The notes under the pieces were generated by a model that was not told the origin of the DNA, searched no databases, and saw only the letters and a list, made by a program, of their open reading frames with translations. DNA of 64,000 bases. It comes from Mailhella sp. GTDB lineage: Bacteria > Desulfobacterota > Desulfovibrionia > Desulfovibrionales > Desulfovibrionaceae. Location: assembly GCA_017408905.1 (NCBI GenBank), contig JAFQTU010000050.1, positions 1 through 64,000 of the forward strand, in the 5' to 3' direction. Positions within the stretch are counted from its first letter, which is position 1. Each line of letters starts with the position of its first letter. The position numbers and the translations under genes were made by a program. This document shows, one piece after another, positions 17,562 to 26,746 of the stretch.

Positions 17562-17591
17562 GTTCTGCCCCTGCCAGAAAAAAGGATGCGT

Positions 17592-20054
17592 ATGAACTCC
17601 TATCAGGACAAGGACTTCCGGGTTCGCGACAGAGTACTCCTCTATGCGCGAGGGCTTGACCTGCCGCCTGCGGAAAGTGTTGAAATAGCACTGAAAAGCC
17701 TGGAGCGCTGCCGCAGCGGCCACCCTTCCTACGCGGAAGCGCTGGAAAACCTGCATCTGATACTTGCCGAACGCGGCAAGGAACTCATCCCTTCCGACGA
17801 CAAGCCCCAGCTCTCCTCCACGCCTCCCGTCAAGCGCAGTACCATGCTCCCGGAAGAGCTGGACCGTACCCCCTGGCTGAGCATTTTCAAAAAGACCCTC
17901 AGCCGCCTCTTCCATGTTCTTACTCCGGCGGGGAACCTCCGCGCCTCGTGGAAAGACAGCGCCGAACGCCAGCAGAAGCAGGAAGACTGGGCAAGGGTGG
18001 CCAGCCGCCGCCGTACCCTGCTGATGACGCTTATCCTCGTTCCGGCGGTCATCGGCGCGTTCATCATGTATAATATCCTGCCGGAGCAGGGCATCGAAGC
18101 CGTCAAAGTCACGACTTCCGTGCTGTTCGCCATCCTTTTCGGCTGGATATCCATAGGCTTCTGGATGTGTGCCGCAGGGTGCTGGCAGCTCATGCGCAAG
18201 GTGGACCGCTTCGCGCCGACCGCGGGATGCGAAGCCGTGGACATAGCCGACGACTGCCGCACCGCCATACTCTTCCCCGTGTACAACGAGGACACCCATA
18301 AATACATGGCCGGCATAGCGGCCACATGGCATTCCCTTGTGGCCACCGGCGAAAGCGGCAAGTTCGACATCTTCATCCTCAGCGACTCCACAAGCCCCGA
18401 AGCATGGGTGGCGGAAGAGGAAGCGTGGTATGAATTCTGCCGCCGCGAAGAGGCCTTCGGGCATATCTTCTATCGCCGCCGCCGCAACAATACCAAGCGC
18501 AAGAGCGGCAACGTGGCCGACTTCTGCCGCCGCTGGGGCGCTCACTACCGCTACATGATCGTGTTCGATGCCGACAGCGTGATGAGCGGCCGCACTATAG
18601 TGCGCATGGTGAAATCCATGGAGCTCCACCCCGAAATGGGCATCATGCAGACTCCGCCCCTGGCGGTGAACATGAACAGCCTTGTGGCGCGCGTCCAGCA
18701 GTTCGCCAACCACCTGTACGGGCCTATCTTCGCCACCGGCCTGCATTTCTGGCTGCTTGGCGACGCGCAGTTCTGGGGGCATAACGCCATCATCCGCACC
18801 CAGCCCTTCATCGAGCACTGCGAACTGCCCTCCCTGCCCGGGCGCGGCCCGCTTGCAGGCGACATCATGAGCCACGACTTTGTGGAATCCGCGCTCATGC
18901 GTCGCGCCGGATACGGCGTGTGGCTGGCCTACGACCTTGACGGCTCGTGGGAAGAAAGCCCGCCCACACTCATCGACGAGCTCATCCGCGACCGGCGCTG
19001 GTGTCAGGGCAACCTTCAGCACAGCCGCCTCATCTTCTCCGGCGGCATCTTCCCCACGCACCGCGCCCTGTTCATCAACGGCATCATGTCCTATGCCTCG
19101 GCCCTGCTCTGGTTCTTCTTCCTTGTGTTCAGTTCCGTGCAGGCCGTGAGCGAAGCCTTCATCCCGCCGTCCTACTTCCCGGCCGCGCCCACGCTGTTCC
19201 CGGTGTGGCCTACGTGGTATCCCCAATGGGCACTGCTCCTTCTGGGCAGTACCGGCGTCATGCTCTTCATGCCGAAGATCTTCGCCATCGTGCTTACGGC
19301 ATACCGGGGCGGGGCAAAGCATTTCGGCGGCTTCTTCCGTATGTGCATGAGCGTGCTGGCCGAAGTGCTCATCTCCACCATGCTCGCCCCCATCCGCATG
19401 ATCTTCCACAGCTTCTTCGTAGTGACCACGCTTCTGGGCTGGAAGGTGGGCTGGAACGTGCAGAACCGCGACGATACCGGCACAAGCTGGGAAGACGCCA
19501 TACGCTTCCACTGGTGGGGCACTCTGCTCGGCATAGTGTGGGGCGGCCTGATGTGGCTCATCAATCCCGGCTTCTTCTGGTGGTTCTCCCCCATCGCCTT
19601 CGGTCTGGCCTTTTCCATCCCGCTTTCAGTGTTCACCAGCCGTGTGAGCTGGGGCCTTGCCGCCCGCCGCCTTGGCCTTTTCGTCACGGCCTCCGAACTC
19701 ACGGAAGCCCCGGAACAGGCCGATATGCATACGGAAGCCAAACGCCCGGACCGCTACTGCCCCTTCTTCATCGACGGCGGCCTCGGCTTTACCCGCGCCG
19801 TGGTCATTCCCCGCGTGCACGCCCTCCACGTCGCTCTCATGCGCCGCCGCGTATGGGAACAGTCCTTCAGCGAAGAGCAGGACAAAAAGCGCCGCGCCCT
19901 CCTCGAAAAGGCGCTGGAACTCGGCCCGAAAAAACTCAGCCGTGCGGAGAAATCCGACCTCCTCATGGATCCGCGCCTGCTCCACGAACTGCACCGCCGC
20001 GTGTGGGAACTCCCCCCGGAAAAGGGGCAGGACTGGGGCGTGAACCAGCACTGA
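17592..20054 (+). CDS. opgH: glucans biosynthesis glucosyltransferase OpgH (MdoH)
   Basis: An 820-residue inner-membrane GT2 glucosyltransferase that polymerises the beta-1,2 glucan backbone from UDP-glucose. The soluble N-terminus is followed by two helices (about residues 140-190). The catalytic domain then has LFPVYNED, VFDADSVMSG (the DxD-type pair), SHDFVESALMRRAGY and the product-site motif RDRRWCQGN. About six further helices follow to residue 700 and a polar C-terminus. An ATG two codons earlier directly abuts the AAAAGG ribosome site, so the ATG at 17592 with about 6-base spacing is more likely. Forms an operon with opgG and ends at a terminator. Confidence 0.93.
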   Translation: MNSYQDKDFRVRDRVLLYARGLDLPPAESVEIALKSLERCRSGHPSYAEALENLHLILAERGKELIPSDDKPQLSSTPPVKRSTMLPEELDRTPWLSIFKKTLSRLFHVLTPAGNLRASWKDSAERQQKQEDWARVASRRRTLLMTLILVPAVIGAFIMYNILPEQGIEAVKVTTSVLFAILFGWISIGFWMCAAGCWQLMRKVDRFAPTAGCEAVDIADDCRTAILFPVYNEDTHKYMAGIAATWHSLVATGESGKFDIFILSDSTSPEAWVAEEEAWYEFCRREEAFGHIFYRRRRNNTKRKSGNVADFCRRWGAHYRYMIVFDADSVMSGRTIVRMVKSMELHPEMGIMQTPPLAVNMNSLVARVQQFANHLYGPIFATGLHFWLLGDAQFWGHNAIIRTQPFIEHCELPSLPGRGPLAGDIMSHDFVESALMRRAGYGVWLAYDLDGSWEESPPTLIDELIRDRRWCQGNLQHSRLIFSGGIFPTHRALFINGIMSYASALLWFFFLVFSSVQAVSEAFIPPSYFPAAPTLFPVWPTWYPQWALLLLGSTGVMLFMPKIFAIVLTAYRGGAKHFGGFFRMCMSVLAEVLISTMLAPIRMIFHSFFVVTTLLGWKVGWNVQNRDDTGTSWEDAIRFHWWGTLLGIVWGGLMWLINPGFFWWFSPIAFGLAFSIPLSVFTSRVSWGLAARRLGLFVTASELTEAPEQADMHTEAKRPDRYCPFFIDGGLGFTRAVVIPRVHALHVALMRRRVWEQSFSEEQDKKRRALLEKALELGPKKLSRAEKSDLLMDPRLLHELHRRVWELPPEKGQDWGVNQH

Positions 20055-21098: not shown

Positions 21099-24000
21099 CT
21101 AGAACAGGCTGAGCTGGCTGGCGGTCTTCTTGGTGTGTTTGGTCAGCTTCACTTCACGGAAGCGGTTCAGGGGCAGGAGCGGCGAAGGCCTGAGCTCCAG
21201 CGTTTTGCCGAAAAGCACGCGCCGGGCCGCCGAGGAAAGGAACACTGCCTCGGACGCGCGCGTGATGCCTACGTAGAGCAAGCGCTCTTCTTCGTCAACC
21301 GAAGGCGGGGCAAAATCGCTGTTTTCCTTGCCAAGCAGGGCGTCCACGCCCCGGAAGGGCAAAAGCCCGTCTTCCGCCGCAGGAATGAAGACCGCTTTGA
21401 ATTCCAAGCCCTTGGAGGCATGAAGGGTCATAAGCTGAACAAGTTCGGCCTGCCCGTGCACCATATCTATCTCGCGCCGGAAGGCCACGAATTCCAGAAG
21501 GCCGGGCCAGCCGCCATGTTCTTTCCACGCATGGCAGAGGCGGCGGAAGGCCGTGGCTTCTCCGAAAAGCGGGTCGAAGACCTCAGTGGAACAGGCAAGC
21601 ACGGCTTCCGGCCCTTGCGCCCAGACGTCATCGGCTATCGCATCCAAGGGGCCGCCCTCGAACAGCGGGCGCTGGGAAGACGGGGCCATAGCCGCAAGAA
21701 GGGGGAAGCGAGACTCGTCGAGGAAGGCGGCTTCCTTCTCGTCATGCTCCTTTTTCCTCAGGAGGCGGGCGGCGGCCTGAAGCATCATATCGACGCGTTC
21801 GTCGGCCCAGAAGGCTTCGGCCTCTGGGGCGGCGCAGGGTATGCCCCGGCGTTCCAGCGCGGCGCGGATGGGCGGGATGAGCGCTTTCAGGCGGCAGAGC
21901 ACGGCTATCTCGCCGGGACTGCACGAGCCGGATTCGAGGTGGCAATGGGCAAGGCTTTCGTGCTGGTCAGCCTGCTGATGGGACGTGCCGCCGATAAGAT
22001 AGGCGATGCGATCGGCTATCCATGCGGCTTCGCGTTCAGCGCTGGGGGCGTCCATCCATTGGAGCGTGGCCGATGCTCCCGTCACGGAGGTGAGCTCGCC
22101 GCATACCCCGCGCCCGGCAAGAGCATCGTGCCCGGCTTCGAGGATGGCCGAGGCCGAGCGGTGGCTTTCGGTCAGACTGAACACTGCAAGTTCGGGCCAG
22201 CGAGAGCGCAGGGCTGTTTCAATGCCCGAATCCGCGCCTCGGAAGCCGTAGATGGACTGATCCGGGTCGCCGATGCCGAAGAAGCCTGAACCGTCGGCAG
22301 GCGTAATGGCTTCCACCAGTGCTTTCTGCAAGGGGGAAAGGTCCTGCACCTCGTCCACAAGGATATGCTCCCACGGCTTGGCCGCGCCGTAATTGCGGCT
22401 TTTCAGGTCGGCCAGCCACGTTTCAGGCAGGTCGGTGTAGTCGGCAAGGCCGCGTTCCTTCTTCCAGCGGCGGTAATTTTCAAGGAGCGGGGCGAGGTCG
22501 TCGGGGACGTTCAGTGTCTCGCGGCCCAGTTCCAGAAGGGAATAGAGGCGGCTGGCCTCCTTCTTGTCCAGTCCGGGATTGGCGGCGTGAAAGGCCTTGC
22601 GCGCGCCTTCCTCCGAAAGCACCACGGGCTGTTCCCCGGGCCAGCGCTTGAGGGCGAGGGCGTGCAGGGTGTCGGTTTCCGGGAGGGCGGGAGAAGTTTC
22701 CCCCTCCGAGGCAAGGGCCGCGCGGAGGCGCTGGCGCATCTCTTCAGCGGCACGGCGCGTGAAGGTGACGGACACGATGGAAGAGGCTGGCACGCCGCTT
22801 TTCAGCAGGCGCACAAGGCGGCCTACCAGCGTACGCGTCTTGCCTGCGCCGGGGCCTGCCAGAACCAGCACCGGGCCGGGGCCTGCCTCAAGGGCGGCGC
22901 GCTGGGCCGGACTGAAGGACTCCGGCAAGAACGAAGGGGCTTTCGCGGCGGGAGCGGCGGCCTTCCGGGGGAATTCAGTCAGCGCTTTGGCGCTTTCTGC
23001 GGACAACGACGTTTTTTTTTGAGCCTCGCCGTCGCAGAAGCCGCAGTCGGCATCAGCTTTCACAGGCTTGCGGCGGACGACAGGCACTTTCGCCAGCAGG
23101 GACGGCGCGTTTTCCGCCTCGTCAAAAAGGCGGATGGTCCCGTATTCGCCGTCGTAGCCACCCTGACGTATGACCTCACCGGCGCGCATACGGCGCACGG
23201 CTTCGCCAAGCTCGGGCCATGTGCGGCCGAGTTCGGCGTGGGGAACGGATTGCAGGATGTCCATTTCAGAGCCGAAGCGCCCCAGAAGGCCAGCATACTT
23301 TTCCTGCACTTTCTTGGACTTGGGGCCGCAATGCAGAAGCTCGCCCACGATTTCCGGCAGGGGGATGAGCGAAGAGAAGTCCTTGCCCGGCTCGGGAGCT
23401 TCGCTTCGGTCGGCAAGGGCCAGTACGCGATGCAGAACGCCCACGGTGAGCGGCTTGCCGCAGACGGGGCAAATGTCGCCGAGCTTCATGCATTCGGCAG
23501 GCTCGAGCATGACGCCGCAGGCCCGATGCCCATCAAGGTGATATTTGCCTTCTTCGGGGAAGAATTCCAGCGTTCCCGCGTAGCTCGTTCCGCCGGGCTT
23601 CTTATGCAGGGCGTCGAAAATGCCGTCGTAGCTGGCCGCGCCCTCGAAAAGCGTGGCTTCGCGGGCGAGGTTCTCGCCGGAATGGGCGTCGGAGCTGGAG
23701 ACCATGAGCAGATGGTCGAGGTGGCTCCAGCACCGGTTCATATCCGGGTCGGAGGAAAGGCCGGTCTCGGCGGCGAAGATGTAGGGCGTAAGATCTTCGA
23801 AACACTCGTCAAGACTGTCGAAGCCGGACTTCGAGCCGAAGAGGGCGAACCACGGCGTCCAGATATGGGCGGGAATCATGTAGGCGCGGGGTATCTCCAG
23901 CACCATCGCCAGCAGGTCTTTCACGTCAAGGCCGAGGATGGGGCGCCCGTCGGACTTCAGGTTTCCTATGGCGTCGAGCTTGGCGCAGAGCCGGTCGGCA

Positions 24001-24365
24001 CTGTCGAGGTCGGGCACATAGACAAGGCTGTGTACCTTGCGCACCTTGCCGTTCTTCTTGTAGATAGAGCTTATCTCGGCTTCCAGCATGAACTGCGGAG
24101 CTTTGAACTCCATGCCGGCAAGCTGGGGTATCTCGCGGGAGAACTCGTCGCGGGAGAGCGGCTTCTTCAGGCGGTAGAGGCCGGTGTTTTCGTCCAGTTC
24201 AAGGCCGTCGCGCAGTTCCTGCCGCCATACCGGGTGCGTGAAGTCGCCGGTGGCAAGCACGTCTATGCCCTTGGCCCCGGCCCATGCCGCAAGGTTCGGA
24301 ATCGTCAGGGCTTTGCTGGTGGCGCGGGAGAAGCGGGAATGGATATGCAGGTCAGCTCGGAACAT
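21099..24365 (-). CDS. EndoQ-like PHP-domain DNA endonuclease fused to UvrD/Rep helicase, with C-terminal beta-clamp motif
   Basis: A 1088-residue, two-enzyme protein. Residues 1 to about 430 match the EndoQ/TIGR00375 family: PHP metal motif DLHIHSRFSRATS (His7, His9), GTG/ATGDFTHP-type loop, IPAHIWTPWFALFGSKSGFDS, SSDAHS (Asp226, His228) and a four-Cys zinc site (Cys283, 292, 299, 302, in GDICPVCGKPLTVGV). Known EndoQ enzymes nick DNA 5-prime of deaminated bases. A linker with CGFC (441-444) leads to a superfamily 1 helicase: Walker A AGPGAGKT (503-510), DEVQD (671-675), GDPDQSIYGFRGAD, LMTLHASKGLEF and LLYVGITRASE. The last five residues, QLSLF, equal the canonical sliding-clamp peptide. 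The gene has its own promoter, and an EamA gene follows. Activity is inferred. Confidence 0.82.
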   Translation of the reverse strand: MFRADLHIHSRFSRATSKALTIPNLAAWAGAKGIDVLATGDFTHPVWRQELRDGLELDENTGLYRLKKPLSRDEFSREIPQLAGMEFKAPQFMLEAEISSIYKKNGKVRKVHSLVYVPDLDSADRLCAKLDAIGNLKSDGRPILGLDVKDLLAMVLEIPRAYMIPAHIWTPWFALFGSKSGFDSLDECFEDLTPYIFAAETGLSSDPDMNRCWSHLDHLLMVSSSDAHSGENLAREATLFEGAASYDGIFDALHKKPGGTSYAGTLEFFPEEGKYHLDGHRACGVMLEPAECMKLGDICPVCGKPLTVGVLHRVLALADRSEAPEPGKDFSSLIPLPEIVGELLHCGPKSKKVQEKYAGLLGRFGSEMDILQSVPHAELGRTWPELGEAVRRMRAGEVIRQGGYDGEYGTIRLFDEAENAPSLLAKVPVVRRKPVKADADCGFCDGEAQKKTSLSAESAKALTEFPRKAAAPAAKAPSFLPESFSPAQRAALEAGPGPVLVLAGPGAGKTRTLVGRLVRLLKSGVPASSIVSVTFTRRAAEEMRQRLRAALASEGETSPALPETDTLHALALKRWPGEQPVVLSEEGARKAFHAANPGLDKKEASRLYSLLELGRETLNVPDDLAPLLENYRRWKKERGLADYTDLPETWLADLKSRNYGAAKPWEHILVDEVQDLSPLQKALVEAITPADGSGFFGIGDPDQSIYGFRGADSGIETALRSRWPELAVFSLTESHRSASAILEAGHDALAGRGVCGELTSVTGASATLQWMDAPSAEREAAWIADRIAYLIGGTSHQQADQHESLAHCHLESGSCSPGEIAVLCRLKALIPPIRAALERRGIPCAAPEAEAFWADERVDMMLQAAARLLRKKEHDEKEAAFLDESRFPLLAAMAPSSQRPLFEGGPLDAIADDVWAQGPEAVLACSTEVFDPLFGEATAFRRLCHAWKEHGGWPGLLEFVAFRREIDMVHGQAELVQLMTLHASKGLEFKAVFIPAAEDGLLPFRGVDALLGKENSDFAPPSVDEEERLLYVGITRASEAVFLSSAARRVLFGKTLELRPSPLLPLNRFREVKLTKHTKKTASQLSLF

Positions 24366-25194: not shown

Positions 25195-25272
25195 AAGTCA
25201 GGCTCCATCTATAAAGGTGTGGGGTCTGTGATATGCGGCGTAAAAAATGATCTTGAAATCCTTGGAGGCTGT

Positions 25273-26130
25273 ATGAAAAAATGGTTTGCTTCTTTTCTTA
25301 TTGCGCTGTGCTGCGTATTCGCCTGTAAGGCAATGACGTTTGCGGCCTTTACAGGCAGAGAGGCAATCAATGTTCTTAAGGCCGAAGCAGAAAATGGAGA
25401 TGCCGATGCTCAGTTTCTGCTTGGCAATAGCTATGCCGAGGGCATACATGGCCTTGAAAAAAATTTTTCGCAGGCGTTCGACTGGTATGAAAAGGCTGCC
25501 TTGCAGGGAAATGCTGCTGCGCAAAATGGTTTAGGAGAGCTGTATTATAAAGGGTATGGTGTTAAACAAAATTATTCAAAAGCAAAGCATTGGTTTGAAA
25601 AAGCCGCCAATCAGGGCGATGTAGAAGCATGGTGTAACTTGGGTGCTATGTATTATAAAGGACACCATGTTCAACAGAATTACCGTAAAGCTAGAGAATT
25701 GTTTAAAAAAGCAGAATTACAAGGCTGTGTAAGAGCTAAGACTTTTTTAGGCAATATTTACTATAAAGGACATGGAGTTAGCAGGGATTACCGTAAGGCC
25801 TTTGGATGGTGGAAAAAGGCGGCTGAGCAGGGAGATGCAAAAGCTAAGTGTAATTTAGGCACAATGTATGCCAATGGACATGGCGTCAGTCAAGATTACT
25901 ATAAGGCGTTTAAATGGATTGAAACTTCAGCGCAACAGGGTTTTATAGAAGCACAGTTTGTTGTTAGTGTTATGTATCTTAAAGGTGAAGGAGTCAGTCA
26001 GAATAACTATAAGGCTTTTGAATGGTGCGAGAAGGCGGCAGAAAAAGGGCATATTGAGGCTCAGGAATTGCTGGGGGGGGCTGTACGAGAAAGGTCAAGG
26101 GGTACGTCAGGATTATCGCAAGGCTCATGA
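25273..26130 (+). CDS. secreted Sel1-repeat protein, truncated by a frameshift at a G8 tract
   Basis: 285 residues as sequenced. MKKWFASFLIALCCVFACKAMTFA is a plausible export signal. Then come six Sel1-like helical repeats of 36 residues (pattern A..LG..Y..G.GV.QNY.KA..W..KAA) and part of a seventh, before the frame is lost in GGGGGGGG at 26073-26080, yielding an unrelated tail RERSRGTSGLSQGS. Removing one G joins it to the next entry to give 490 residues with 12 repeats. The GC content is visibly lower and codons AAA, GAA, TAT commoner than in the neighbours, suggesting acquisition. Sel1 proteins often act as protein-interaction scaffolds; no specific role can be given. GGAGG precedes the ATG. 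Confidence 0.75.
   Translation: MKKWFASFLIALCCVFACKAMTFAAFTGREAINVLKAEAENGDADAQFLLGNSYAEGIHGLEKNFSQAFDWYEKAALQGNAAAQNGLGELYYKGYGVKQNYSKAKHWFEKAANQGDVEAWCNLGAMYYKGHHVQQNYRKARELFKKAELQGCVRAKTFLGNIYYKGHGVSRDYRKAFGWWKKAAEQGDAKAKCNLGTMYANGHGVSQDYYKAFKWIETSAQQGFIEAQFVVSVMYLKGEGVSQNNYKAFEWCEKAAEKGHIEAQELLGGAVRERSRGTSGLSQGS
26073..26080 (+). repeat. poly-G tract (G8) at the frame break
   Basis: Eight consecutive G inside an otherwise AT-leaning gene, exactly where the Sel1 frame is lost. Seven G would restore the repeat pattern on both sides. Such tracts mutate by strand slippage. Confidence 0.9.
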
Positions 26131-26746
26131 ATGGTATGAAAAGGCAGCTAAGGAAGACTCTGCAAGGGCTCAGTTTTCTTTGGGAATAATATATGCTAGT
26201 GGCCGAGGAGTACGGCAGGATTACCAAAAGGCGCGTGAATGGTGGGAAAAATCAGCACAACAATGTTACGCAGACGCACAGTCTGCTTTAGGTCAACTGT
26301 ATCTGCTTGGCACCGGTGTTTGCCAAGATTACCAAAAGGCACGTGAATGGCTTGAAAAAGCTGCCCGGCAGGACAATGCTCCTGCGCAAGCACTTTTGGG
26401 CGTTATGTATCTCAAAGGAGAAGGCTACGGTAAAGATTCAAAGAAGGCGTTCGAATGGATTGAAAAAGCAGCACTGCAGGGACATCCGTATTCGCAAGGT
26501 GTCTTGGGCTCGATGTATCTTTCAGGTCAGGGGGTTAGCAAAGATTACCGTAAAGCCTTTGAATGGTGCGAAAAAGCAGCACAAAATGGCCTTCCCATCG
26601 GCCAGTTTGGGTTAGGCATGATATATGAACTGGGTCTTGGAGTCCGTAAAAATATTTCTGAAGCCAAAGAATGGTATGGCAAGGCCTGTGACAACGGCGA
26701 CCAGAAAGGATGTGACGCTTACGCTCGCCTTAACAGTGGTCGTTGA
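26081..26746 (+). pseudogene. out-of-frame C-terminal part of the Sel1-repeat protein
   Basis: This stretch continues the Sel1 pattern in the +1 frame: LYEKGQGVRQDYRKAHEWYEKAA completes repeat seven, then five more repeats and the end GDQKGCDAYARLNSGR. It has no start codon or ribosome site of its own in the repeat frame; the open frame reaching back to 25958 is out of register with the repeats. It would be expressed only if the G8 tract loses one base or the polymerase or ribosome slips. A sequencing or assembly error is the simplest alternative. Confidence 0.75.

Follow-up and report, generated by a model that had tools for sequence, protein, structure and literature searches.

A bacterial fusion of an EndoQ-type nuclease and a UvrD/Rep-like helicase ending in a beta-clamp-binding motif: a candidate enzyme for glycosylase-free repair of deaminated bases

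The window analyzed here, a 64,000-nucleotide stretch of Mailhella sp. DNA (contig JAFQTU010000050.1, positions 1 to 64,000), contains on its minus strand, at positions 21099-24365, a single uninterrupted reading frame that runs from ATG to stop and encodes 1,088 amino acids; the plus-strand reading of the same interval is interrupted by a stop. The encoded protein is made up of an EndoQ-type nuclease, a linker, a UvrD/Rep-like helicase and a short C-terminal tail, and the following features were assigned.

21099-24365, minus strand: EndoQ-UvrD/Rep fusion gene, 1088 amino acids plus stop (open reading frame; homologues with the same architecture).
23115-24365, minus strand: EndoQ-type nuclease part, residues 1-420 in the structure comparison (phmmer to PfuEndoQ, TIGR00375, Foldseek, VIA-align, invariant catalytic and pocket residues).
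23460-23528, minus strand: zinc site, residues 280-302, with ligands H280, C283, C299 and C302 (alignment to Pfu).
22947-23105, minus strand: flexible linker, residues 421-473 (pLDDT below 50).
21135-22934, minus strand: UvrD/Rep-like superfamily 1A helicase, residues 478-1077 (Pfam PF00580 and PF13361; Foldseek and VIA-align; motifs).
22836-22859, minus strand: Walker A (motif I) AGPGAGKT, residues 503-510 (invariant A503, G504, P505, G506, G508, K509 and T510).
22341-22355, minus strand: motif II (Walker B) DEVQD, residues 671-675 (invariant D671, E672 and D675).
21102-21116, minus strand: C-terminal beta-clamp-binding motif QLSLF, residues 1084-1088, in a disordered tail (homologue tails compared with shuffled tails; pLDDT below 50).

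An AlphaFold model of the fusion protein, computed with an alignment of 39 window and locus sequences, had a mean pLDDT of 85, with values below 50 only at residues 421-473 and 1078-1088. Its pTM of 0.56 is expected, since the two domains sit on a flexible linker. An earlier note on this DNA had proposed that an EndoQ-type nuclease and a superfamily 1 helicase are joined in one polypeptide, and sequence, residue and fold evidence agree on this; the HxH, IPAHIWTP and SKSGFDS blocks that it listed were all found in the protein. The fusion is genuine, and chance and artefact are ruled out because 57 of the 59 relatives, and homologues in other phyla, keep the whole architecture. The adjoining genes encode an MTS methyltransferase and an EamA transporter. 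By eye, a long plus-strand open reading frame near the fusion gene (17586-20054) resembles a glucan glucosyltransferase of the MdoH/OpgH type, and two overlapping plus-strand frames at 25219-26746 both show Sel1-type repeats and may represent one frameshifted repeat protein.

Residues 4-417 matched PfuEndoQ (PDB 5zb8) with an E value of 2e-42 in a phmmer search. In the profile search that the earlier note had suggested, the N-terminal part matched TIGR00375 over the full length of the model (E value, 5e-41), with a score of 141 bits against a curated cut-off of 326.6. The best score in the phylum sample was 211 bits, and none of its genomes exceeded the cut-off. Because it scores below the equivalog cut-off, the nuclease is described here as an EndoQ-type homologue and not as a strict TIGR00375 equivalog. 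In the AlphaFold model, residues 1-420 superimposed on PfuEndoQ with a Foldseek TMt of 0.88 and a VIA-align Z score of 45.7 (rmsd, 2.3; 383 residues), and the dU-DNA complex of PfuEndoQ (7k30) was also matched; identity over the structure-aligned region was about 32%. The nine metal and catalytic positions of the Pfu enzyme (H8, H10, D42, E76, H84, H139, E167, D193 and H195) correspond in the alignment to H7, H9, D41, E97, H112, H167, E200, D226 and H228, and eight of these do not vary among 40 fused proteins, the exception being D226, present in 39. Replacement of Pfu E76, H84 or H139 by alanine abolishes activity, and thymine and adenine are kept out of the base-selecting pocket by H139, G169 and S171 (reviewed in PMC8307549). 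The pocket residues of the fusion, H167, G202 and S204, are identical to these and the same in all 40 fused proteins.

The zinc site was present as well, with H280, C283, C299 and C302 aligned to Pfu C249, C252, C268 and C271 and invariant in the 40 fused and 12 stand-alone sequences. A site formed by Cys283, 292, 299 and 302 had previously been proposed; Cys283, 299 and 302 stand, whereas the Cys292 position holds Thr or Ser in most homologues and is no conserved ligand, the true one being His280. Placement of this domain in another PHP family lacking the EndoQ zinc site, the outcome that the earlier note had set against its own reading, was not borne out, as the domain matches EndoQ and carries the four-ligand site. 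Compared with characterized endonucleases Q (PfuEndoQ, TkoEndoQ, MacEndoQ and BpuEndoQ), the fusion shares the whole N-terminal part, the PHP metal site, the pocket residues, the zinc domain and a C-terminal clamp or PIP motif. It differs in its first zinc ligand and in its TIGR00375 score below the cut-off; furthermore, the known enzymes are stand-alone proteins, whereas here a helicase lies between nuclease and clamp motif. A bacterial member, EndoQ of B. pumilus, nicks at uracil, hypoxanthine and AP sites (PMC6202378, PMC8438529), and by analogy with such relatives the fusion is expected to cut 5' of the same kinds of lesion. The nuclease could instead have shifted to other damage, so that the fusion would repair, for example, oxidized or ring-reduced pyrimidines, or nothing but AP sites. 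PfuEndoQ does cut at 5-hydroxy- and dihydropyrimidines too (PMC8307549), and the identity of about 32% to it and the Cys-to-His change at the zinc site would fit such a shift. However, every catalytic and discriminating pocket residue known from Pfu is identical, and His is the first zinc ligand in all 12 stand-alone bacterial relatives examined, so we consider a shifted lesion quite improbable.

In the second part of the protein, profile searches of the kind the earlier note had called for matched the UvrD-helicase and UvrD_C domains (Pfam PF00580 and PF13361) to residues 486-1046. Residues from about 478 to 1077 of the model also resembled UvrD, Rep and PcrA in Foldseek and in VIA-align (Z scores of about 38 to 39.4), and all seven superfamily 1A motifs (I, Ia, II, III, IV, V and VI) were found, in line with the earlier description of a helicase with all main motifs. 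The fused motor thus has the fold and motifs of UvrD, Rep and PcrA; unlike them, it is joined to a nuclease, and it scores far under the cut-offs of their NCBIfam equivalog models (151 to 161 bits against 911 to 1144). The genome also encodes a separate canonical UvrD and separate RecD2-like helicases, so the fused motor comes on top of these and does not replace them. A UvrD-type motor covalently linked to a nuclease is likewise present in the AddA/RecB helicase-nucleases. In those enzymes, the nuclease is of the PD-(D/E)XK type and lies at the C terminus, whereas the nuclease of the fusion is of the PHP/EndoQ type, lies at the N terminus and would be expected to perform lesion-specific nicking rather than resection. 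Two candidate peculiarities of the helicase part were rejected: a GGxSHxxxD insert was dropped as a family signature, its strict pattern being present in only 19 of 119 sequences, and a shrunken 2B domain was ruled out, the stretch from motif III to motif V spanning 286 residues against 294 in the organism's own UvrD.

The protein ends in ASQLSLF, and its last five residues fit the QLxLF type of beta-clamp-binding motif. This canonical motif, judged from the sequence of the tail, had been overlooked in the earlier note. Among the 39 fused proteins of the phylum, 21 carried a strict Q[LM]x[LM]F pattern within their last 15 residues (0.02 expected from shuffled tails), as did 50 of the 77 from the genome scan (0.06 expected), and the pattern occurred only twice in the 121,761 residues of the protein bodies; some members of the order have imperfect C-terminal clamp motifs. 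With a looser pattern, a clamp-like end was present in 13 of 14 proteins comprising the stand-alone EndoQs of the phylum and two EndoQs from split operons. In 39 of 114 homologues, although not in the window protein, a Q..LF motif directly follows the EndoQ domain, at the point where a stand-alone protein would end. We read this motif as a probable trace of the fusion event, and it possibly serves as a second clamp site. In archaeal EndoQ, the equivalent PIP box binds PCNA with a KD of 55 nM, and PCNA stimulates nicking (PMC4858679). The clamp motif as such is not new: motifs of this kind were described in bacterial homologues of EndoQ, among them those of Bacillus and Desulfovibrio, by Shiraishi et al. 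in 2016 (PMC4858679). Since the conserved C-terminal motif points to partnership with the sliding clamp, the "self-contained" pathway of the earlier note is too strong a description, and the fusion would still depend on polymerase, flap nuclease and ligase.

Of the 59 genomes from the window's order and family, 57 had an EndoQ match. The best-matching frames were 929 to 1406 amino acids long; the single exception, of 686, lies at the end of a contig. Across the phylum, 255 of 395 genomes, from many families, carried a homologue, either stand-alone (about 430 amino acids) or fused (about 950 to 1170). A scan of 85,000 species genomes gave at least 591 relatives, of which the best 80 were examined. 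In 78 of them, a single frame held both the EndoQ and the Walker A motifs, and the fusion was present in about 18 bacterial phyla by our own tally from record titles and NCBI ranks. The same 80 included Actinomycetota (Saccharopolyspora, Micromonospora, Frankia and Rhodococcus rhodnii), Planctomycetota, Chloroflexota, Bacteroidota, Bacillota (Moorella stamsii), Gemmatimonadota, Elusimicrobiota, Gastranaerophilales, Binatota, Geobacter and others; contigs from metagenome-assembled genomes can be mis-binned, and cultured isolates were also among the relatives. The fusion is therefore not confined to Desulfovibrionales, a point that the earlier note had raised for checking, and these counts do not support its picture of EndoQ as a stand-alone enzyme found mainly in archaea and a few bacteria. 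In the remaining two of the best 80, EndoQ and a UvrD-type helicase are encoded by adjacent genes separated by 3 and 75 bases, respectively, and both genes of each pair have a clamp-like motif of their own at the end.

L128:4995-8231 (Nitrospirae): unfused pair, EndoQ then UvrD-type helicase.
L174:4992-7904 (Omnitrophota): unfused pair, EndoQ then UvrD-type helicase.

In a tree of the EndoQ domain, the fused proteins form one clade (SH-aLRT, 99%) with one split form inside it, and on the neighboring branch lie the split operon of Nitrospirae and one stand-alone EndoQ without an adjoining helicase gene. The simplest reading of these sequences is that a stand-alone enzyme would have given rise to a gene pair, then to one fusion and, rarely, to a renewed split; the root is uncertain because the Pfu outgroup branch is long. 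Pairwise distances of the EndoQ and helicase parts covary (Spearman, 0.60; Mantel P value, 0.002), a pattern that a common species history would produce as well. Mean identity was 56% in the EndoQ part and 36% in the helicase part.

This distribution bears on the proposal that the fusion is an anti-phage or anti-plasmid nuclease directed against uracil- or hypoxanthine-rich foreign DNA, with the helicase giving processivity. A role of this kind has been suggested for Bacillus EndoQ (PMC8307549), and the helicase part, as a UvrD relative, matches models of the Gabija protein GajB. These matches reflect generic UvrD similarity, and membership of the Gabija (GajAB) system was rejected, as no OLD-family GajA partner is adjacent. 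Searches of phages, viral contigs and PHROGs found no relative of the fusion, and the matches listed from a plasmid search were helicase-only. A defense role is further opposed by the near-universal, vertical conservation of the fusion in the order, by adjoining genes that include neither an OLD nuclease nor another defense gene and by a clamp motif that fits housekeeping, and we regard it as very unlikely.

The repair setting of the window genome, which is 97.8% complete, was then considered. Profile searches of this genome gave no match to UDG (PF03167), EndoV (PF04493) or Nfo (TIGR00587), and the fusion is thus the only recognized lesion-specific uracil initiator found in it. An ExoIII-type enzyme is encoded, and by analogy with Mth212 this homologue could act on uracil too. 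The Mth212-type uridine endonuclease pathway resembles that proposed here in its glycosylase-free incision 5' of uracil; it differs in operating without a helicase, and the folds are unrelated. No UDG was found in 44 of the 59 genomes of the order, and no EndoV in 58; UDG is missing from all 17 genomes of the window's family in the phylum sample, whereas it is present in 352 of the other 378 genomes of the phylum sample. Complementarity between fusion and UDG across the phylum was tried as a rule and rejected, EndoQ being commoner outside the window's family in genomes with UDG (233 of 352) than in those without it (5 of 26). Among genomes of other groups with the fusion or gene pair, UDG is present in 45 of 46, and the fusion is therefore not a general substitute for it. 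The UDG-poor setting is a fact of this lineage and not a general rule; within Desulfovibrionales, the fusion probably ranks among the main enzymes that start the repair of uracil and hypoxanthine.

What we observed is a single polypeptide whose catalytic, pocket and helicase motifs are intact and whose folds match, with a conserved clamp motif and an architecture that forms a single clade across phyla. The reading that we favor, with a probability of roughly 0.66, is that the fusion is a clamp-tethered enzyme for glycosylase-free repair of deaminated bases, of the nucleotide-incision type. Support for it comes from the EndoQ match in sequence and fold over the whole domain, the invariance of the pocket and catalytic residues, the intact motifs, a clamp motif far above chance, the occurrence of EndoQ and helicase as adjacent genes, the single clade of fused EndoQ domains, the covarying distances of the two parts, the lack of UDG, EndoV and Nfo matches in the window genome alongside a separate UvrD and the activity of the B. 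pumilus enzyme. Against it stand the TIGR00375 score under the cut-off, the coexistence with UDG outside Desulfovibrionales, the imperfect clamp motifs of some order members and the ExoIII homologue. In this model, the QLSLF tail would bind the beta clamp and bring the protein to replicated or repaired DNA, where the EndoQ part would flip a deaminated base (uracil, hypoxanthine, probably xanthine) or an AP site into its pocket and hydrolyze the phosphodiester 5' of the lesion to leave a 3'-OH. The helicase part, which by family would move 3' to 5', may then load on the intact strand at the nick and travel downstream, lifting the lesion-bearing strand as a 5' flap. A polymerase would extend the 3'-OH, a flap nuclease would cut and a ligase would seal, and the clamp motif would keep the enzyme where polymerase and ligase dock too. 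Mismatch repair follows a similar logic of nick, clamp and UvrD. Clamp binding and helicase polarity are assigned by analogy with characterized relatives, whereas we infer the direction of loading at the nick, and the coupling of nicking to unwinding is our best model, drawn from the design of the protein.

The helicase might also act before the nick, opening or scanning the DNA of forks, R-loops or single-stranded stretches and handing deaminated bases to the nuclease, with Pol I or UvrD removing the strand afterwards. EndoQ does act on both single-stranded and duplex DNA (PMC8307549), the separate canonical UvrD could remove strands, and many stand-alone EndoQs function without a fused helicase. 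Crystal structures, however, show EndoQ flipping its target from duplex DNA by itself, so that it requires no prior unwinding (PMC8307549), and a helicase step after the EndoQ nick has already been proposed as a model, on other grounds (PMC4357722). We therefore hold this order of events to be unlikely and retain the clamp-tethered repair model, in which unwinding follows the nick.

EndoQ, UvrD-type helicases and the clamp motif were each already known, and Desulfovibrio EndoQ homologues and their clamp motifs were noted in 2015 and 2016; figure 9A of PMC4357722 lists lengths for Desulfovibrio homologues. Nothing on the helicase fusion itself, on its occurrence in about 18 phyla, on the intermediate gene pair or on the UDG-poor setting turned up in our literature search, which covered few subscription journals. 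Events after the EndoQ nick have been stated as unknown (PMC8438529), and a protein that carries nuclease, helicase and clamp motif on a single chain opens the step after the nick to direct testing. The picture of EndoQ also shifts, from an enzyme of archaea and a few bacteria to a repair enzyme common among bacteria, and Desulfovibrionales stand out as an order whose uracil repair may proceed largely without UDG. The broader view, that Desulfovibrionales largely lost the uracil-glycosylase route, that one clamp-bound nuclease-helicase removes both uracil and hypoxanthine and that this constitutes an unrecognized repair system in many phyla, is tentative, and we would give it a little under an even chance.

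Across the fusion loci, no general conserved neighborhood was found. In several Desulfobacterota (L131:1-1751, L145:1-3350, L126, L127, L136 and L069), the clamp gene dnaN and gyrB lie within a few kilobases of the fusion, in opposite orientation. We also observed dnaN near the fusion of a member of Gastranaerophilales (L147). Between dnaN and the fusion in four loci (L131:3742-4881, L126, L127 and L145) lies a conserved gene pair, one gene without a Pfam match and the other with a weak match to RdgC.
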